Assembly (NCBI RefSeq): GCF_022919115.1
Contig: NZ_CP095072.1
Span: 3,224,001 to 3,288,000 of the forward strand
Source: Gracilibacillus caseinilyticus
GTDB lineage: Bacteria > Bacillota > Bacilli > Bacillales > Amphibacillaceae
Direction of reading: 5' to 3'
Length of the DNA: 64,000 nt
Of this stretch, positions 2,009 to 60,488 are shown piece by piece; the first letter of the stretch is position 1, and each line of letters opens with the position of its first letter. Both the position numbers and the translations under genes were made by a program. A model generated the notes under the pieces. It saw nothing but the letters and a program-made list of their open reading frames with translations. It did no database searches and was not told the origin of the DNA.

Positions 2009-2164
2009 ATAATTACTACCTCATTTCTTATTTGTAGAGCCTAAATATTAGCGCTGGCCAACCACTCCCCGCAGGACGCGGAGTAGTTGGCCGGAGCGGT
2101 ATCTCAGTACATGAATCATTTCAAAATTACCTTTAAACTGCTAGTTAACATAATCCGTATTAAA
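2009..2164 (+). repeat. Intergenic fold-back repeat, copy A (short, right-half form)
   Basis: The right half of the repeat family described under 21214-21962. The GC-rich block at 2054-2100 forms a hairpin of GGCCAACCACTCC with GGAGTAGTTGGCC (one mismatch in 13). It is followed by the conserved run ATCATTTCAAAATTAC and the right terminus TTAACATAATCCGTATTAA. The left end is eroded; only TATAAT at 2009 resembles it. The rest of the 1958-2343 gap holds a family-like tail with a T-tract near 2210 and no gene. Confidence 0.8.
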
Positions 2165-10013: not shown

Positions 10014-10228
10014 TATCTTGTTGCAATGAAAGAGAATAGTACTGTTTCGAATGTCTTACAAGCGAGTTCAGGATGGTGTAAGCTGAACAAGAATAGAAAC
10101 AGGAAGGCGCTCTAGAGCGATAGTTCTTGAAAGTGGTCACCTGTACCGGTGACAAGTAGGGTGGAACCGCGGATGAACCCGTCCCTATGTCTTATCGTTG
10201 GTGATAAGACATAGGGACGGGTTTTTAA
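10014..10228 (+). ncRNA. T-box leader (tRNA-Gly sensing) of glyQS
   Basis: The diagnostic T-box sequence AGGGTGGAACCGCGG is at 10158-10172. Upstream, stem I shows the AGCGAGTTC / GATGGTGTAAGC apical region (from ~10061). A plausible glycine specifier GGC lies at 10106-10108 after GAA. A strong terminator with a 21-bp stem (10178-10221) and a T-run follows. Uncharged tRNA-Gly would stabilise the antiterminator and allow readthrough. Unusually, glyQ starts more than 600 bases further on, with a repeat element in between. Confidence 0.93.
10176..10226 (+). terminator. T-box regulated intrinsic terminator
   Basis: The stem CCCGTCCCTATGTCTTATC pairs perfectly with GATAAGACATAGGGACGGG, followed by TTTTT. 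Its 5' arm follows the T-box sequence, as expected for the antiterminator/terminator switch. Confidence 0.93.
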
Positions 10229-10300: not shown

Positions 10301-10748
10301 ATAATACAGATTAGTCAACTAGCGTAGAGGTCATTTTGAAATGCAGTTAGTGATATGATTCCGCTCCGGCCAACCTCTTCGCGTCCTGCGGGAAACTACG
10401 TGGTTGGCCTACGCTATTTACGGGTTCCACAACTTATACAAGAGCTAGCACATTGAGCTGATTAATAAGATAGCATTCAAATTCTACATAACACAATACG
10501 CCTAGCACCACTGCTTTTAGCTGTTTCATACGTTGTAGCATTTCCTTAAGCGTAGGAAAACTCCGCATGCGTCAGCGCGAGCTGAAAATCCACTTTGTCT
10601 GTGCGTGTGTCTACAAGTATTGCTTCGAAGCGGAATTCCTCGGCACAAGGCAGCAAAGAAGCCGTGCTCCACAGGACGCGGAGCATATTTCCGGAGCTTT
10701 GTTCCAGCATAGTTAATACAGTATATAGTTCACATAATCTGTATTATA
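10301..10748 (-). repeat. Intergenic fold-back repeat, copy B (reverse orientation) in the glyQS 5' region
   Basis: The reverse-oriented family member. Its left edge ATAATACAGATTAGTCAAC and right edge TTCACATAATCTGTATTATA are the inverted termini. Inside are, as reverse complements of copy C, CGGCCAACCTCTTCGCGTCC, CTACGTGGTTGGCCTACGCT and GGACGCGGAGCATATTTCCG. The middle differs from copy C: no nested element, and two GC blocks are fused near 10395. The remaining bases 10229-10300 and 10749-10834 show no gene or clear promoter. Confidence 0.85.
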
Positions 10749-10849
10749 CAAACCCTGTAACTTAGCAATTATTGGACGATTTTCGTAAAAGACAGGTAAT
10801 CAAATAAATCAAAGTCAAGTAAAAAAAACTGTATAGGAGGATGAAAAGA

Positions 10850-21109: not shown

Positions 21110-21213
21110 TTGATAAGAATAGGCAGCAGCATAGGTTAAAACGATACTGGGAAAAATAGACCTGTGTAAGTTGTTTTTTCTTCACAATTATCTGAACATG
21201 AAGATGGGGTCTT

Positions 21214-21962
21214 TATAATACGGAATATGTAAATTGGAACTGTCTGACATTGTGGACAATTTTGATAGATTCCATCTGCTTAGCAAAGCTCCGGAAATAT
21301 GCTCCGCGTCCTGTGGGGCACGGCTTCAGCTAACAGTGGAAAGAAAATTCTTTTCTTTCCACTGTGGATCTTCAGCTCGTACTGATCCCACGGTCTCCAC
21401 ATGTTTTCTACGCTTAAGGGAAGTTCTACAACGTTTAAAACAGCTAAAAGCGTGATTCTAGGCATTATACGTCATTAGAATAAGGTATAAATCCTGCAGA
21501 TAATGCTCCCTATCCTACCTGCCGCAATAATTGTAGCTAAACATGAGCGTAGGCCAATCACGTAGACTCGAGGTCACTGAAAAACATATTATGGAAATTT
21601 ATTCTCCCACTAAGATAGCTATAAACAGGTTTAAAGTGGTTTCAATCCACCACTTTTATATGATATTTTGCATGAATTTTGGGATTCGATTTTCCTGTCG
21701 CAAATTTTTATGGACTTATTCAGTGGCCTCCGTAGACTCCCGCGGGACATGCAGGTGCTGAAGATCCACTACATCTGCACCTGTGTCTACTAGTATCGCT
21801 TCGATTAAGCTTCTTCGGTGCAAGGCAGCAAAGAAGTAATTCGAGTAGTAGCCTAGCTTCAGCCGTGCCCCGCAGGACGCGGAGTGGTTGGCCGGAGCGG
21901 TATGTCAGCACACTAAGCAGTTCAAAATGACTTCAACGCTAGTTGACATAATCCGTATTATA
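21214..21962 (+). repeat. Intergenic fold-back repeat, copy C (longest copy, with nested element)
   Basis: This ~750-bp copy has TATAATACGGAATATGTAAA at the left and TTGACATAATCCGTATTATA at the right, an imperfect inverted repeat of ~20 bases. Subterminal GC-rich blocks are also inverted: CCGCGTCCTGTGGGGCACGG near 21306 against CCGTGCCCCGCAGGACGCGG near 21863. A palindrome AGTGGAAAGAAAA / TTTTCTTTCCACT is at 21335-21364. A nested element lies at 21570-21730. No coding potential is convincing. The bases outside it in 21110-22030 hold only a terminator near 21992-22015. Confidence 0.88.
21570..21730 (+). mobile_element. Nested miniature element in copy C, with 9-bp target duplication
   Basis: 161 bp bounded by GAGGTCACTGAA and its near-perfect inverse TTCAGTGGCCTC. 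It is flanked on both sides by CGTAGACTC (21561-21569 and 21731-21739), a 9-bp direct repeat typical of transposition. The centre has a hairpin AAAGTGGT/ACCACTTT. It has no transposase, so it would be moved in trans. A near-identical copy is at 37632-37793. Confidence 0.85.
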
Positions 21963-21991
21963 GGTAGTGTATATTATTTTTGTTAGTTAGG

Positions 21992-22016
21992 ACCGGGAGA
22001 GCTTTCCCGGTTTTTC
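21992..22016 (+). terminator. Terminator-like hairpin at the right flank of repeat copy C
   Basis: ACCGGGA and TTCCCGGT pair around a short loop and run into TTTTT. A related sequence with GCCCGGTTTTTCTTAG follows copy E (~38075-38092), so this tail probably belongs to the repeat. Confidence 0.6.
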
Positions 22017-22030
22017 CTAAAACATATTAG

Positions 22031-22090
22031 AAAAGCCGAACATAACAGAAATCCTTTTTGATGAGATTTCAAGTTATGTTCGGCTTTTTA
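22031..22090. terminator. Bidirectional terminator downstream of ispH
   Basis: AAAAGCCGAACATAAC (22031-22046) pairs perfectly with GTTATGTTCGGCTTTT (22073-22088), and an inner GAAATC/GATTTC pair is also present. Each strand gives a T-rich end. On the minus strand it follows ispH (stop at 22120). Confidence 0.88.
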
Positions 22091-25500: not shown

Positions 25501-25636
25501 TTTGGCTATTTTGAAATGATTTAAATGTGTAGCAAAGCTCCGGAAATATGCCCCACAGTAAGCGGAGTGGTTGGTCAGAGCGGTATTTTAGCACACTAAA
25601 TCTGTCAAAACCAACTCAACGCTTGTTAGCATAAAG
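25501..25636 (+). repeat. Intergenic fold-back repeat, copy F (internally deleted)
   Basis: A short degenerate copy. The left-half sequence (GGCTATTTTGAAATGATTT, then AGCAAAGCTCCGGAAATATG) is joined directly to the right-half sequence (GCGGAGTGGTTGGTCAGAGC, then GCTTGTTAGCATAA). The middle is deleted and the right end is eroded. The flanking bases in 25423-25500 and 25637-25710 show nothing else. Confidence 0.75.
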
Positions 25637-25710: not shown

Positions 25711-25764
25711 AAAAGTCGAATCATAACTCGAATCTTACTTGATGACGTTTTATGTTCGGCTTTT
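25711..25764. terminator. Terminator between nfo and yqfT (convergent)
   Basis: AAAAGTCGAATCATAAC pairs with TTATGTTCGGCTTTT with a bulge and a G-U wobble. The stem is closely related in sequence to the terminator at 22031-22090. Confidence 0.65.
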
Positions 25765-25837
25765 AATTTGACTAAAATCCACTTTTCCCAGACTCTTTCC
25801 TGTCGTATGCATATTTTTTATATTTAAAATAAAACTA

Positions 25838-29596: not shown

Positions 29597-29670
29597 AAAA
29601 GTAAAGAACGCAACATAGAAGTCAGTCATAAAGCCGAATTACAGATTCATACTGAAGAAATATGGATTCT

Positions 29671-30073
29671 TATAATACGGATGATGTAAAGTGTAACTGT
29701 CTAACAATTAGGCTATTTTGAAATGTTTTATGGAAATATGCTCCGCGTCCTGTGGGCACGGCTTCGGCTCGCACTGACGCATGCGGAGTCTCCGCATATT
29801 TCCTACGCTTTAGTGAAGTGCTACTACGTACGTAACAGCTAAAAGCAGTAGTGCTAGGCATTACGATATTTAGAATTAGAATGGCATGACAATTATGGAT
29901 ATGCTCTATATGCTAGTTCTTGCAAAAGTTGCAGAGTTTTATCCTAGCGTAGGCTAACCACTTAGACTCCCGCGGGACTGCGGTGACCCCCATTTATTGG
30001 ACAAGTTTTTAGCCTATCTCTACAAACTGATTTCAAAATTACCATTAAGCCAGTTGACACAATCCGTATTATA
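29671..30073 (+). repeat. Intergenic fold-back repeat, copy D (empty nested site)
   Basis: Left terminus TATAATACGGATGATGTAAA, right terminus TTGACACAATCCGTATTATA. Inside are CGCGTCCTGTGGGCACGGCT, a palindrome ATGCGGAGTCTCCGCAT, and AAAAGCAGTAGTGCTAGGCA. The site that carries the nested element in copies C and E is uninterrupted here (CTTAGACTCCCGCGGG at 29961-29976). Bases 30074-30460 are AT-rich upstream DNA of the Na/Pi gene with a candidate cre site and no gene. Confidence 0.86.
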
Positions 30074-30237
30074 GATAGCTTAAGCCGGTGGGGGAAGCTC
30101 GTTTTTTCTTTATCTAGATCATATAGCCAGATTATATTTAATAAGGTGGTAAAGCAATATTGTTATCCTATAAAAAAGCAACCTGATTAATTTTACATTT
30201 CATAACCTTACAGGGAAAAGAATGTAACTAAAATTTC

Positions 30238-37237: not shown

Positions 37238-37296
37238 TGAGAAAGTATATAAGTACAGTCATAGAAATAATCATGCTAAACATGAAGGTGTGTCTG

Positions 37297-38026
37297 TATA
37301 ACGATGTGCTAATATTGACATTTTTAGTGTGCGTAGCAAAGCTCCCGAAATATGCTCCGCGTCCTGTGGGGCACGGATTCAGCTAACTTAGGAAAGAAAA
37401 TTCTGTTCTTTCCTAAGTGGATCTTCAGCTCGCGCTGATCCCACGGGAGTCTCCGCATATTTCCTCCGCTTAAGGGAAGTTCTACAACGCTTGAAACAGC
37501 TAAAAGCAGCGGTGCTAGGCATTATGATACATCAAAATGAGGAGGTCTAACTCATGCGATAGCTCTTCAAATACTTCCCGTAACATCTGTTGTATAGCAA
37601 ACACCCTAGCGTAGGCCAACCACGTAGACTCGAGGTCACTAAAAAAACATATTATGGAAATTTATCCTCCCACTAAGATAGCTATAAACAGGTTTAAAGT
37701 GGTTTCAATCCACCACTTTTATATGATATTTTGCATGAATTTTGGGATTCGATTTTCCTGTCGCAAATTTTTATGGACTTTTTCAGTGGCCTCCGTACAC
37801 TCCCTCGGAACATGCGGGGTGCTGAAGATCCACTACGTCTGCACCTGTGTCTACTAGTAACGCTTCAAAGTAGGCTTCCTCGGTGCAAGGCAGCAGAGAA
37901 GTGATTCGAGTAGTAGCCTAGCTTCAGCCGTGCCCCGCAGGACGCGAAGTGGTTGGCTGGAACGGTATCCCAGCACACACAATATATCAAAATAGTCCCA
38001 AGGTTAGTTGACATAATCCGTATTAA
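37297..38026 (+). repeat. Intergenic fold-back repeat, copy E (with nested element), upstream of pstS
   Basis: A near-parallel copy of C: AGCAAAGCTC and CGCGTCCTGTGGGGCACGG at the left, the palindrome CTTAGGAAAGAAAA / TTTCCTAAG, the nested element at 37632-37793, then GTGCCCCGCAGGACGCGAAG and the right terminus TTGACATAATCCGTATTAA. The left terminus is eroded (TATAACGATGTGCTAA). A related tail with a poly-T hairpin runs to ~38092. Between it and the Pho box only a solitary end-like TTATAATACGATAATGTAAA (38171) is seen. Confidence 0.86.
37632..37793 (+). mobile_element. Nested miniature element in copy E
   Basis: 162 bp, almost identical to 21570-21730. Inverted ends GAGGTCACT / AGTGGCCTC are flanked by CGTAGACTC (37623-37631) and CGTACACTC (37794-37802), one change in the 9-bp duplication. 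It sits at the same internal position as in copy C, so composite repeats were copied after the insertion. Confidence 0.85.
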
Positions 38027-38312
38027 AGGAAGTTATATATAATTACGTTAGTTATGGTCGAACGAGGTTTTGCCCGGTTTTTCTTAGTTGTAAAGAAAAA
38101 TTACCATTGCTTTTATTAAATATTTGCAAAATGAATGCTGCAATGAATTAAAACATAAGTGGAAGGCTTTTTATAATACGATAATGTAAACTATATTTAC
38201 TTAATGTAGATGGAGGATTTGTTCGGTAATTGTTATTCGAAAATAGAACGTTTATTGGTGATAGATTGCAAAATATGTAGTATTTCATGTTAATTTCTAT
38301 CAATCTGTCGAA

Positions 38313-53744: not shown

Positions 53745-53829
53745 TTTTTTGTATGCAAAGAAAGCACATAATCACAGTCATTAGGGAGAATTTCAGTAGT
53801 GCATCGCGCTCAAGCTTGAAAAGAATTCT

Positions 53830-54053
53830 TATAAAATGGATTATGTAAAATGGTACTGAATAACACTGTGGTAATTTTGATATGTGTACAGTGGTTAGTA
53901 AAGCTCCTGAAATTCGCTCCGCGTCCTGTGGGTGTGGGGCGCGAATTCAGCTAGGCTACTACTTGCAATGCTTCCCTGCTGCTCCTAGCTTCACAGCACA
54001 TGAATCATTTCAAAATTACCGCTAAGCAGTTAGTTGACATAATCCATATTATA
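53830..54053 (+). repeat. Intergenic fold-back repeat, copy G (medium-short)
   Basis: Left terminus TATAAAATGGATTATGTAAA, right terminus TTGACATAATCCATATTATA, an almost perfect inverted pair. Inside are CTCCGCGTCCTGTGGGTGTG and ATGAATCATTTCAAAATTAC, identical in part to copy A. Flanks 53753-53829 and 54054-54158 hold nothing else recognisable. Confidence 0.85.
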
Positions 54054-54158
54054 CGTAGCATTCTTTATATACACTAAAGTTAGTAAGGGGTTGGCGGATT
54101 TGGCAAGTAATATGTTGCTGATGCTCAGCCCGAATGATATGAAGTGATTTTTTAATAA

Positions 54159-60393: not shown

Positions 60394-60488
60394 TAAAATA
60401 CAGATTATGTCTAGCTTAGTGCTCATTTTGAAATGTTGTTAGTGCAAGGATATCGCTCCAGCCAACCACTTCGCGTCCTGTGGGACCG
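60394..60488 (-). repeat. Intergenic fold-back repeat, copy H (reverse, right-half fragment)
   Basis: Read on the plus strand it starts TAAAATACAGATTATGTCTA, then TCATTTTGAAATG and CTCCAGCCAACCACTTCGCG, TCCTGTGGGACC. It is the reverse complement of the right half of the family, cut off just before the yqhG stop at 60504. Confidence 0.78.

Follow-up and report, generated by a model that had tools for sequence, protein, structure and literature searches.

What are the inverted, fold-back repeats that recur between the genes of Gracilibacillus caseinilyticus, and what are their inverted ends for? The window analysed here, the whole stretch of 64 kb at positions 3,224,001-3,288,000 of a single 4.51-Mb contig, holds eight of them, which the original prediction took for a non-autonomous MITE-type family or else a large structured RNA. 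A core profile built from 20 cores of 500-540 bp, all from outside the window, recovered the eight copies and no ninth place in the window (nhmmer, E<=1e-3). That the repeats form a true family is borne out both by this search and by a genome-wide scan, in which 220 ends were found and none with a reversed-pattern control. The copies are collinear, two of them (21214 and 37297) carrying a 161-bp insert and four (2009, 25501, 53830 and 60394) being short. As predicted, all eight lie between longer ORFs of the window, and repeat finding in the window placed their blocks in both orientations. Their supposed richness in GC relative to the surroundings held for seven copies and failed for one (0.364-0.444 for the copies with short margins, 0.370 for the window). 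Shuffle tests of the fold-back covered two copies: copy 21214 folds better than chance would allow (z -11.1, 0 of 20 shuffles), and copy 10301 does so less markedly (z -2.3, 2 of 100 shuffles).

Searched genome-wide, the family extends far beyond eight copies, and a related genome is positive as well. The 220 ends, counted with at most two mismatches in 4.51 Mb against zero for the reversed control, are a lower bound, because merely six ends of the window's eight copies pass the two-mismatch test; scaled from the window, the total would be nearly 300 copies, or about one per 15 kb. At least 139 BLAST matches to one copy occur in the genome (40 of 358 candidates scored), and the copies stand isolated across the contig. 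When both ends were required to lie within five mismatches and less than 1 kb apart, 61 paired copies were obtained, spanning 130-838 bp and mostly 500-590 bp. The fetched stretches of this genome also contain 27 unpaired ends, some of which are edge or threshold effects; three have loose partners 1.9-3.3 kb away.

The inverted ends proved to be the telling part of the repeat. Each is 28 bp long with an 11-6-11 layout and carries the arms of the host's own dif, around a spacer that is mostly TATGGA or TACGGA where dif has TATATA. The own dif (ACTTCCCATAA-TATATA-TTATGTAAACT) was located at 3,452,226 with a B. subtilis-like dif pattern. In the fetched stretches the sign of the GC skew switches near this position, from 0.034 in the bin at 3.25 Mb to -0.124 in the one at 3.5 Mb. 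The consensus of the right site, ACTACCTATAA-TATGGA-TTATGTAAACT, matches the own dif at 24 of 28 positions and that of the left site at 21 of 28. Among the 127,946 28-mers of the window, seven matches at six places reach at least 20 identities to the own dif, and all of them are element ends. At site positions 3, 5, 7-13, 15-23, 25, 26 and 28 one base is present in at least 52 of the 61 copies on both sides, and the near-invariant stretch common to the sites measures 17 bp. In the own genome, dif arms with a free spacer number 200, against 0 for the reversed pattern. Across the order, 175 of 397 genomes have any such match, mostly one and typically 0-1 per genome, the reversed control giving mostly 0 and at times 1-2; among the spacers listed there, TATATA, TTTATA and TAAATA are frequent, which fits dif itself. 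Neighbouring ends less than 1 kb apart face inward in 68 of 79 cases in the own genome and in 49 of 63 in the sister genome (fetched stretches). With the XerC and XerD sides assigned from the site table of PMC13141974, the two sites of a copy are inverted with their XerD halves inside, which by that table is the D-module arrangement. Judged by its sequence, each inverted terminus is a dif-type Xer site that lies inside the copied unit and marks a putatively invertible core; that it is a transposon end, as a MITE-type family would require, is not supported. The features of the window copies are collected in the table.

Table. Positions of repeat features in the 64-kb window.
Feature	Position	Strand	Remarks
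Left dif-like site of copy 21214, 28 bp	21208..21235	+	XerC-type arm outside, XerD-type arm inside
Right dif-like site of copy 21214	21941..21968	-	ACTACCTATAA-TACGGA-TTATGTCAACT; 22/28 identical to own dif
Fold-back core of copy 21214	21236..21940	.	Best matches minus versus core profile; interrupted by 161-bp insert
Right outer flank, conserved, with intrinsic terminator GGACCGGGAGAGCTTTCCCGGTTTTT	21963..22019	+	Copy 21214
Left outer flank, conserved part TCTGAACATGAAGATGGGGTCTT	21191..21213	+	Copy 21214
Secondary insert GAGGTCACTGAAAA...TTCAGTGGCCTC	21570..21730	.	Read from sequence; in copy 21214
9-bp direct repeat CGTAGACTC around secondary insert	21561-21569, 21731-21739		Read from sequence
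Short copy	2009..2164	.	One recognisable dif-like site, 2143-2170, minus, 21/28
Copy 10301	10301..10748	.	Right dif-like site 10727-10754, 20/28 minus, 21/28 plus
Degenerate copy	25501..25636	.	No dif-like site with >=19/28 matches
Copy with both sites	29671..30073	.	29665-29692 plus, 30052-30079 minus, 19/28 each
Copy 37297	37297..38027	.	Left site degenerate; right site 38006-38033, 22/28
Left outer flank of copy 37297	37240..37301	- as printed by search	89% to flank query
Short copy with both sites	53830..54053	.	53824-53851 plus, 54032-54059 minus, 21/28 each
Shortest copy, degenerate	60394..60488	.	No site with >=19/28 matches

Some further features of the window deserve mention. The insert shared by the two long copies (21570-21730 and 37633-37793) is itself a second MITE-like element of about 161 bp, with the same ends (GAGGTCACTGAAAA...TTCAGTGGCCTC) and 9-bp repeat (CGTAGACTC), and a relative is present at locus L032 (G094). 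Copy 10301-10748 is situated between a T-box leader (10017-10189, Rfam) and an ORF at 10841, where the sister genome has just about 139 bp between the aligned blocks. Hairpin terminators of the form AAAAGCCGAA...TTCGGCTTTT with related loops are alike at about 22033-22090 and 25735-25790, and pieces of this hairpin motif were seen in some left flanks.

How far does the family reach? With the strict end pattern TATAATAYGGATTATGTNAA, 178 occurrences were counted in the own genome, 265 in a congener (G126) and none in the other 157 family genomes searched, so that the dispersed end family is present in 2 of 159 family genomes, the own and its sister. Parts of the core, on the other hand, have matches in 68 of 146 family genomes, counting the own one, and dif-like sites were absent at the six core-matching loci of relatives that we inspected. 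Since core matches are widespread and the special ends are confined to two genomes, the core belongs to a wide group of palindromic repeats and the ends to one small lineage. A plasmid collection gave one weak match (73% over 16% of the query, Radiobacillus kanasensis), and a phage collection gave no match to the repeat. Scanned with an end pattern of 20 bases, a collection that may omit records near the window's genome returned one locus, L038, from an unrelated MAG; it has no partner end within 2 kb and was taken as a chance match. In another family of the order (f44), 7 of 15 genomes have 4-15 dif-like sites with many different spacers, and on two contigs (G432:C9 and G490:C2, L175-L178; 69 and 172 kb) such sites occur in both orientations. 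These are possible dif modules on plasmids.

The repeated unit exceeds the boundaries first drawn for it, with conserved flanks of about 60-70 bp on the left and about 57 bp on the right, the latter with an intrinsic terminator. Outside the inverted ends, many of the 61 paired copies share ...AAGAAAGTATATAAGTACAGTCATAGAAGTAATCATGCTGAACATGAAGATGGGTTCT on one side and the terminator GGTAGTTGTATATTATTTATGTTAGTTAGGACCGGGTGGGCTTTCCCGGTTTTTCTT on the other; the outer ends of the unit are AAGAAAGTATATAAG on the left and the terminator on the right. The proposed layout thus reads left flank, dif-like site, palindromic core, inverted dif-like site and right flank with its terminator. The opposing view is that of an ordinary MITE family, whose termini would resemble dif by chance and whose core would have inserted either way into pre-existing flank repeats. 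The repeats are indeed dispersed, non-coding and non-autonomous, have inverted ends and differ in insertion between the sister species, and to this extent the MITE-type reading stands. Core and flank similarity, moreover, are nearly uncorrelated (r 0.09-0.16), compared with 0.49 between left and right flanks, where short flanks saturate, and a solo left flank (own 1596918-1596988, L179) breaks off near position 6 of the site and gives way to unrelated DNA, with no site, core or right flank behind it. Against such an origin, flank matches begin inside the inverted end in 40 of 40 scored cases on the right (338 candidates) and in 38 of 40 on the left (313 candidates), the exceptions being the solo flank and 3196509, whose site is degenerate. 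Among these same scored matches we saw no left flank joined directly to a right flank. At own 1813144, the sole clean empty site among 14 listed small-gap sister sites, the sister is without flanks, sites and core together, and the arms closely match the host dif and mark dif in other genomes. We therefore regard an ordinary MITE family as quite unlikely. The insertion at 1813144 is surrounded by an 8-nt near-duplicate (6 of 8), and no consistent target-site duplication was found in 28 listed copies. The remaining listed small-gap sister sites hold either unrelated filler or remnants, as at 87223, which retains the left flank and the left site.

The left boundary tends to follow a terminator. 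A TTTTT run is found at most 30 nt before it in 20 of 30 copies, versus 0.125 of control intergenic positions in the window, and many units hence sit directly behind terminators. The copies at own 1849259 and 2935841 directly follow the terminator of another copy, so that tandem units are possible. The solo left flank mentioned above also sits behind a hairpin terminator, and one copy (3343481-3344225; L160, G000:C1:3341255-3344225) follows the xerD ORF at a distance of about 170 bp, where the sister gap measures 58 bp. It could be argued that a large structured RNA or a bidirectional terminator is the selected function, with mobility secondary. The predicted folding of copy 21214 is strong, the right end carries a terminator, the left end is enriched behind TTTTT runs, and standard pairs in 20 aligned cores slightly exceed all 200 shuffles (cells paired, 0.967 versus 0.961). 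Double changes, in contrast, affect 7 of 82 pairs versus 5.5 in shuffles (38 of 200 reach this), which is not a clear excess, and double-change cells number 15 versus 7.9. The Rfam search of the window returned six tRNAs and one T-box only, with no match at gathering thresholds in any repeat copy. With covariation this weak, the structured-RNA alternative of the original prediction finds little support, and we hold a function of this kind to be improbable as the main explanation.

Comparison of the copies indicates that the DNA between the ends has been flipped many times. In a first pass, orientation was judged on the interior of the core, 60 bases or more from the ends, and the own flank labels overlapped site positions 1-6. 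Relative to the flanks, cores split 24:29 among 53 own copies and 19:14 among 33 sister copies, after 8 of 61 own rows and 4 of 41, then 4 of 37, sister rows had been dropped. A recount by plain mismatch scan, with flank labels taken solely from beyond the site, gave the same picture: 17:20 in the own genome (68 pairs, 45 with clear flanks) and 15:19 in the sister (45 pairs, 40 with clear flanks), with 23 of 68 and 5 of 45 rows dropped for unclear flanks and 8 of 45 and 6 of 40 for unclear cores. Of the core pairs, 456 of 460 are consistent with a two-orientation labelling in the own genome, as are all 516 in the sister. Orientation is just as mixed among close relatives: of 27 copy pairs with clear cores and both flanks at least 80% alike, 14 point the same way and 13 opposite ways, and for the 123 pairs whose cores are alike to 80% or more (787 length-matched pairs) the figures are 57 and 66.

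Where the exchange occurs can be read from the variable positions of the site. In the own genome (37 copies), information about flank side amounts to 0.59, 0.79 and 0.66 at site positions 2, 4 and 6 and is at most 0.08 from position 7 inward, while information about core end stays at or below 0.12 up to position 23 and rises to 0.34, 0.48 and 0.66 at positions 24, 27 and 31. Set side by side, flank and core values are 0.79/0.01 at position 4, 0.66/0.02 at 6, 0.05/0.48 at 27 and 0.03/0.66 at 31; in the sister (34 copies) they are 0.92/0.02 at position 2 and 0.02/0.87 at 31. Label shuffles reach 0.11-0.18 at the informative positions of the own genome, and at most 0.15 at the positions set side by side. 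This shift of linkage from flank to core across the site is the trace that exchange inside it would leave, in which the outer arms stay with the flanks and the inner side stays with the core. Because positions 7-23 hardly vary, the crossover in the own genome can be placed merely between 6 and 24; positions 24 and 27 of the sister vary yet track neither flank nor core, so its crossover can be placed merely between 2 and 30. Homologous recombination or gene conversion between the arms of the palindrome would also turn the core, as the arms are inverted repeats and one crossover between them suffices. However, the near-invariant stretch of the site is only 17 bp long, yet copy 21214 has a deeper block of 26 pairs in its arms, and the linkage of the bases just inside the site to the interior means that crossovers concentrate at or beside the site. 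For these reasons homologous exchange seems to us very unlikely as the cause of the flipping, the least probable of the alternatives that we weigh.

The spacers, too, are as exchange by Xer would demand, equal spacers being what permits inversion in a dif module. Both ends of a copy have the same spacer in 56 of 68 own copies (shuffle mean 24.7, maximum 38, 0 of 10,000 reaching the observed value) and in 35 of 45 sister copies (shuffle mean 30.5, 20 of 10,000 reaching it), while the ends agree at positions 4, 6 and 27 in 12, 6 and 12 of 61 copies, respectively. This agreement is in part inherited by subfamily descent. Private variants common to both ends were found in the own genome for 4 of 14 spacer variants versus 1 of 37 arm variants (P 0.017); in the sister (0 of 8 versus 0 of 29) there was no preference for the spacer.

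Orthologous copies were compared as well. Out of 67 items, 33 had synteny on both sides; 13 of these were gaps of less than 150 bp in the sister, either empty or holding a remnant or filler, and 11 others gave no clear core orientation. A clear call, defined as plus and minus scores at least 20 apart with the better one above shuffles (a threshold set after seeing the table), was obtained for nine pairs, with the core inverted in three and pointing the same way in six (651855, 1602726, 1849259, 3253671, 3895709 and 3277830). The inverted cores are 4492286 (244 vs 105), 3261297, which is window copy 37297 (166 vs 92), and the weaker 2663194 (52 vs 29). Flank scores favour unchanged flanks for 4492286 (56 vs 24) and for the other two inverted copies (40 vs 32 and 32 vs 24), and are tied for 3277830. 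A separate alignment of window copy 37297 with the sister placed 227 bases in minus with the terminator side unchanged. The chromosomes themselves are colinear: with 40 of 58 tags placed (40 of 108 candidates scored), 39 of 40 steps between placed tags keep the circular order, one wrap being expected. Since colinearity persists despite inverted cores, exchange within a copy appears to be tolerated, and exchange between copies to be rare or lost.

Which enzymes might turn the core? On chromosomes, dif is the substrate of XerC and XerD, known as CodV and RipX in B. subtilis. The own genome encodes an XerD of 298 aa (TIGR02225, 396 bits) and an XerC of 301 aa (TIGR02224, 359 bits), both above the curated cut-offs. 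It has 12 matches to the tyrosine-recombinase family PF00589 in all, so enzymes other than XerC and XerD could be involved. A different, lineage-specific tyrosine recombinase might accordingly be imagined, given the 12 matches here, the 11 in the sister and the dispersed sites in just these 2 of 159 genomes. However, four congeners without the repeat family also have 6-13 matches, and the arms are those of the host's dif, with its known enzymes. A dedicated recombinase is in our judgement improbable. As for the autonomous partner that the original prediction envisaged, none was found among Y1 transposases (PF01797, 0 matches in the own genome) and tyrosine recombinases, the two classes searched.

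Altogether, we consider it very probable that the family is a dispersed non-autonomous unit with an invertible, dif-flanked core that is flipped by host XerC and XerD. Host XerC and XerD would recombine the two sites of one copy and thereby turn its core over, as in the dif modules of Acinetobacter, while the distinct spacer would shield the chromosomal dif from exchange with the copies. From the switch of linkage, we strongly infer that it is these two enzymes that flip the core. Against inversion stands the statement, made for the plasmid site cer, that the required synapse does not form between inverted sites (PMC5357621).

With less certainty than flipping, cores may also be exchanged between copies. 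This is suggested by the low correlation of core with flank similarity and by near-identical cores in unlike flanks: those of 2516176 and 3627343 are 96% identical, with flank similarity of 0.60-0.62, and 3627343 has unequal spacers. A bolder version, which we put forward tentatively and as the less likely course, is a chromosome-wide cassette exchange in which XerC and XerD both turn the cores and swap them among more than 100 dispersed docking units, perhaps via folded single strands. In this scheme the palindromic core would be the cargo and the unit a docking site that is itself mobile, with distinct spacers walling off the chromosomal dif. Folded single strands are known to insert in the case of CTXphi and of integron cassettes. 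By analogy, a folded core strand might pair its two sites into one dif-like site that Xer inserts into other copies, a route to which the inverted sites around a palindrome, the random orientation and the cores just described would all be congenial. Inverted double-strand recombination, however, explains the orientation alone more simply, and we think the single-strand route rather unlikely, if somewhat less so than the other alternatives discussed. We return, then, to flipping within the copy as the reading that best accounts for these repeats.

As a rule, a chromosome is taken to have a single dif site. Here about 200 dif-type sites, mostly in inverted pairs, coexist with colinearity to the sister genome, which raises the question of what confines Xer recombination: flipping seems to stay inside the individual copy, and the chromosome is not scrambled. 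These genomes lend themselves to studying, in a natural setting, the specificity of spacers and the ways in which distance and DNA translocases control Xer.

Several known systems resemble the family in part. Like MITEs and the bcr1-like repeats of Bacillus, the units are short, non-coding, intergenic and mobile; unlike them, their fold-back ends are dif-type recombination sites, target duplications are not consistent among the copies listed, and the search of Y1 transposases and tyrosine recombinases revealed no partner. REP/RAYT systems differ in their Y1 transposase (PF01797), which was not found here. The GC-rich palindromic repeats of the same bacterial family share core parts with ours (68 of 146 genomes, the own included), whereas the six loci inspected there are without dif-like sites. 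Chromosomal dif has the same arm sequences and 11-6-11 layout, but our sites are many, paired and inverted, mostly have TATGGA or TACGGA in place of TATATA, and lie away from the terminus. IMEX and CTXphi-type elements likewise exploit host Xer through dif-like sites, and the attP of CTXphi has inverted paired sites; the repeats described here, in contrast, are not inserted at dif, their sites are not the boundaries of the unit, as the clean empty site reveals, and they carry no genes. The closest counterpart is the D type of dif module on Acinetobacter Rep_3/OrfX plasmids (PMC13141974), with two inverted 28-bp sites, XerD halves inside, equal spacers in most copies and inversion between the sites, which in our case is a deduction; a D module without ORFs is described there too. 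What sets our repeats apart is that they are chromosomal, dispersed and isolated, belong to one palindromic family and are nested in a flanked unit, and no alternating arrays of C and D modules were seen on the 4.51-Mb contig. A literature search over titles and abstract openings found no paper on a dispersed chromosomal dif-flanked repeat family. The repeat is thus of the dif-module kind, placed on the chromosome, multiplied there and specific to one lineage, and it extends the dif-module-like arrangement beyond the plasmids of Acinetobacter.
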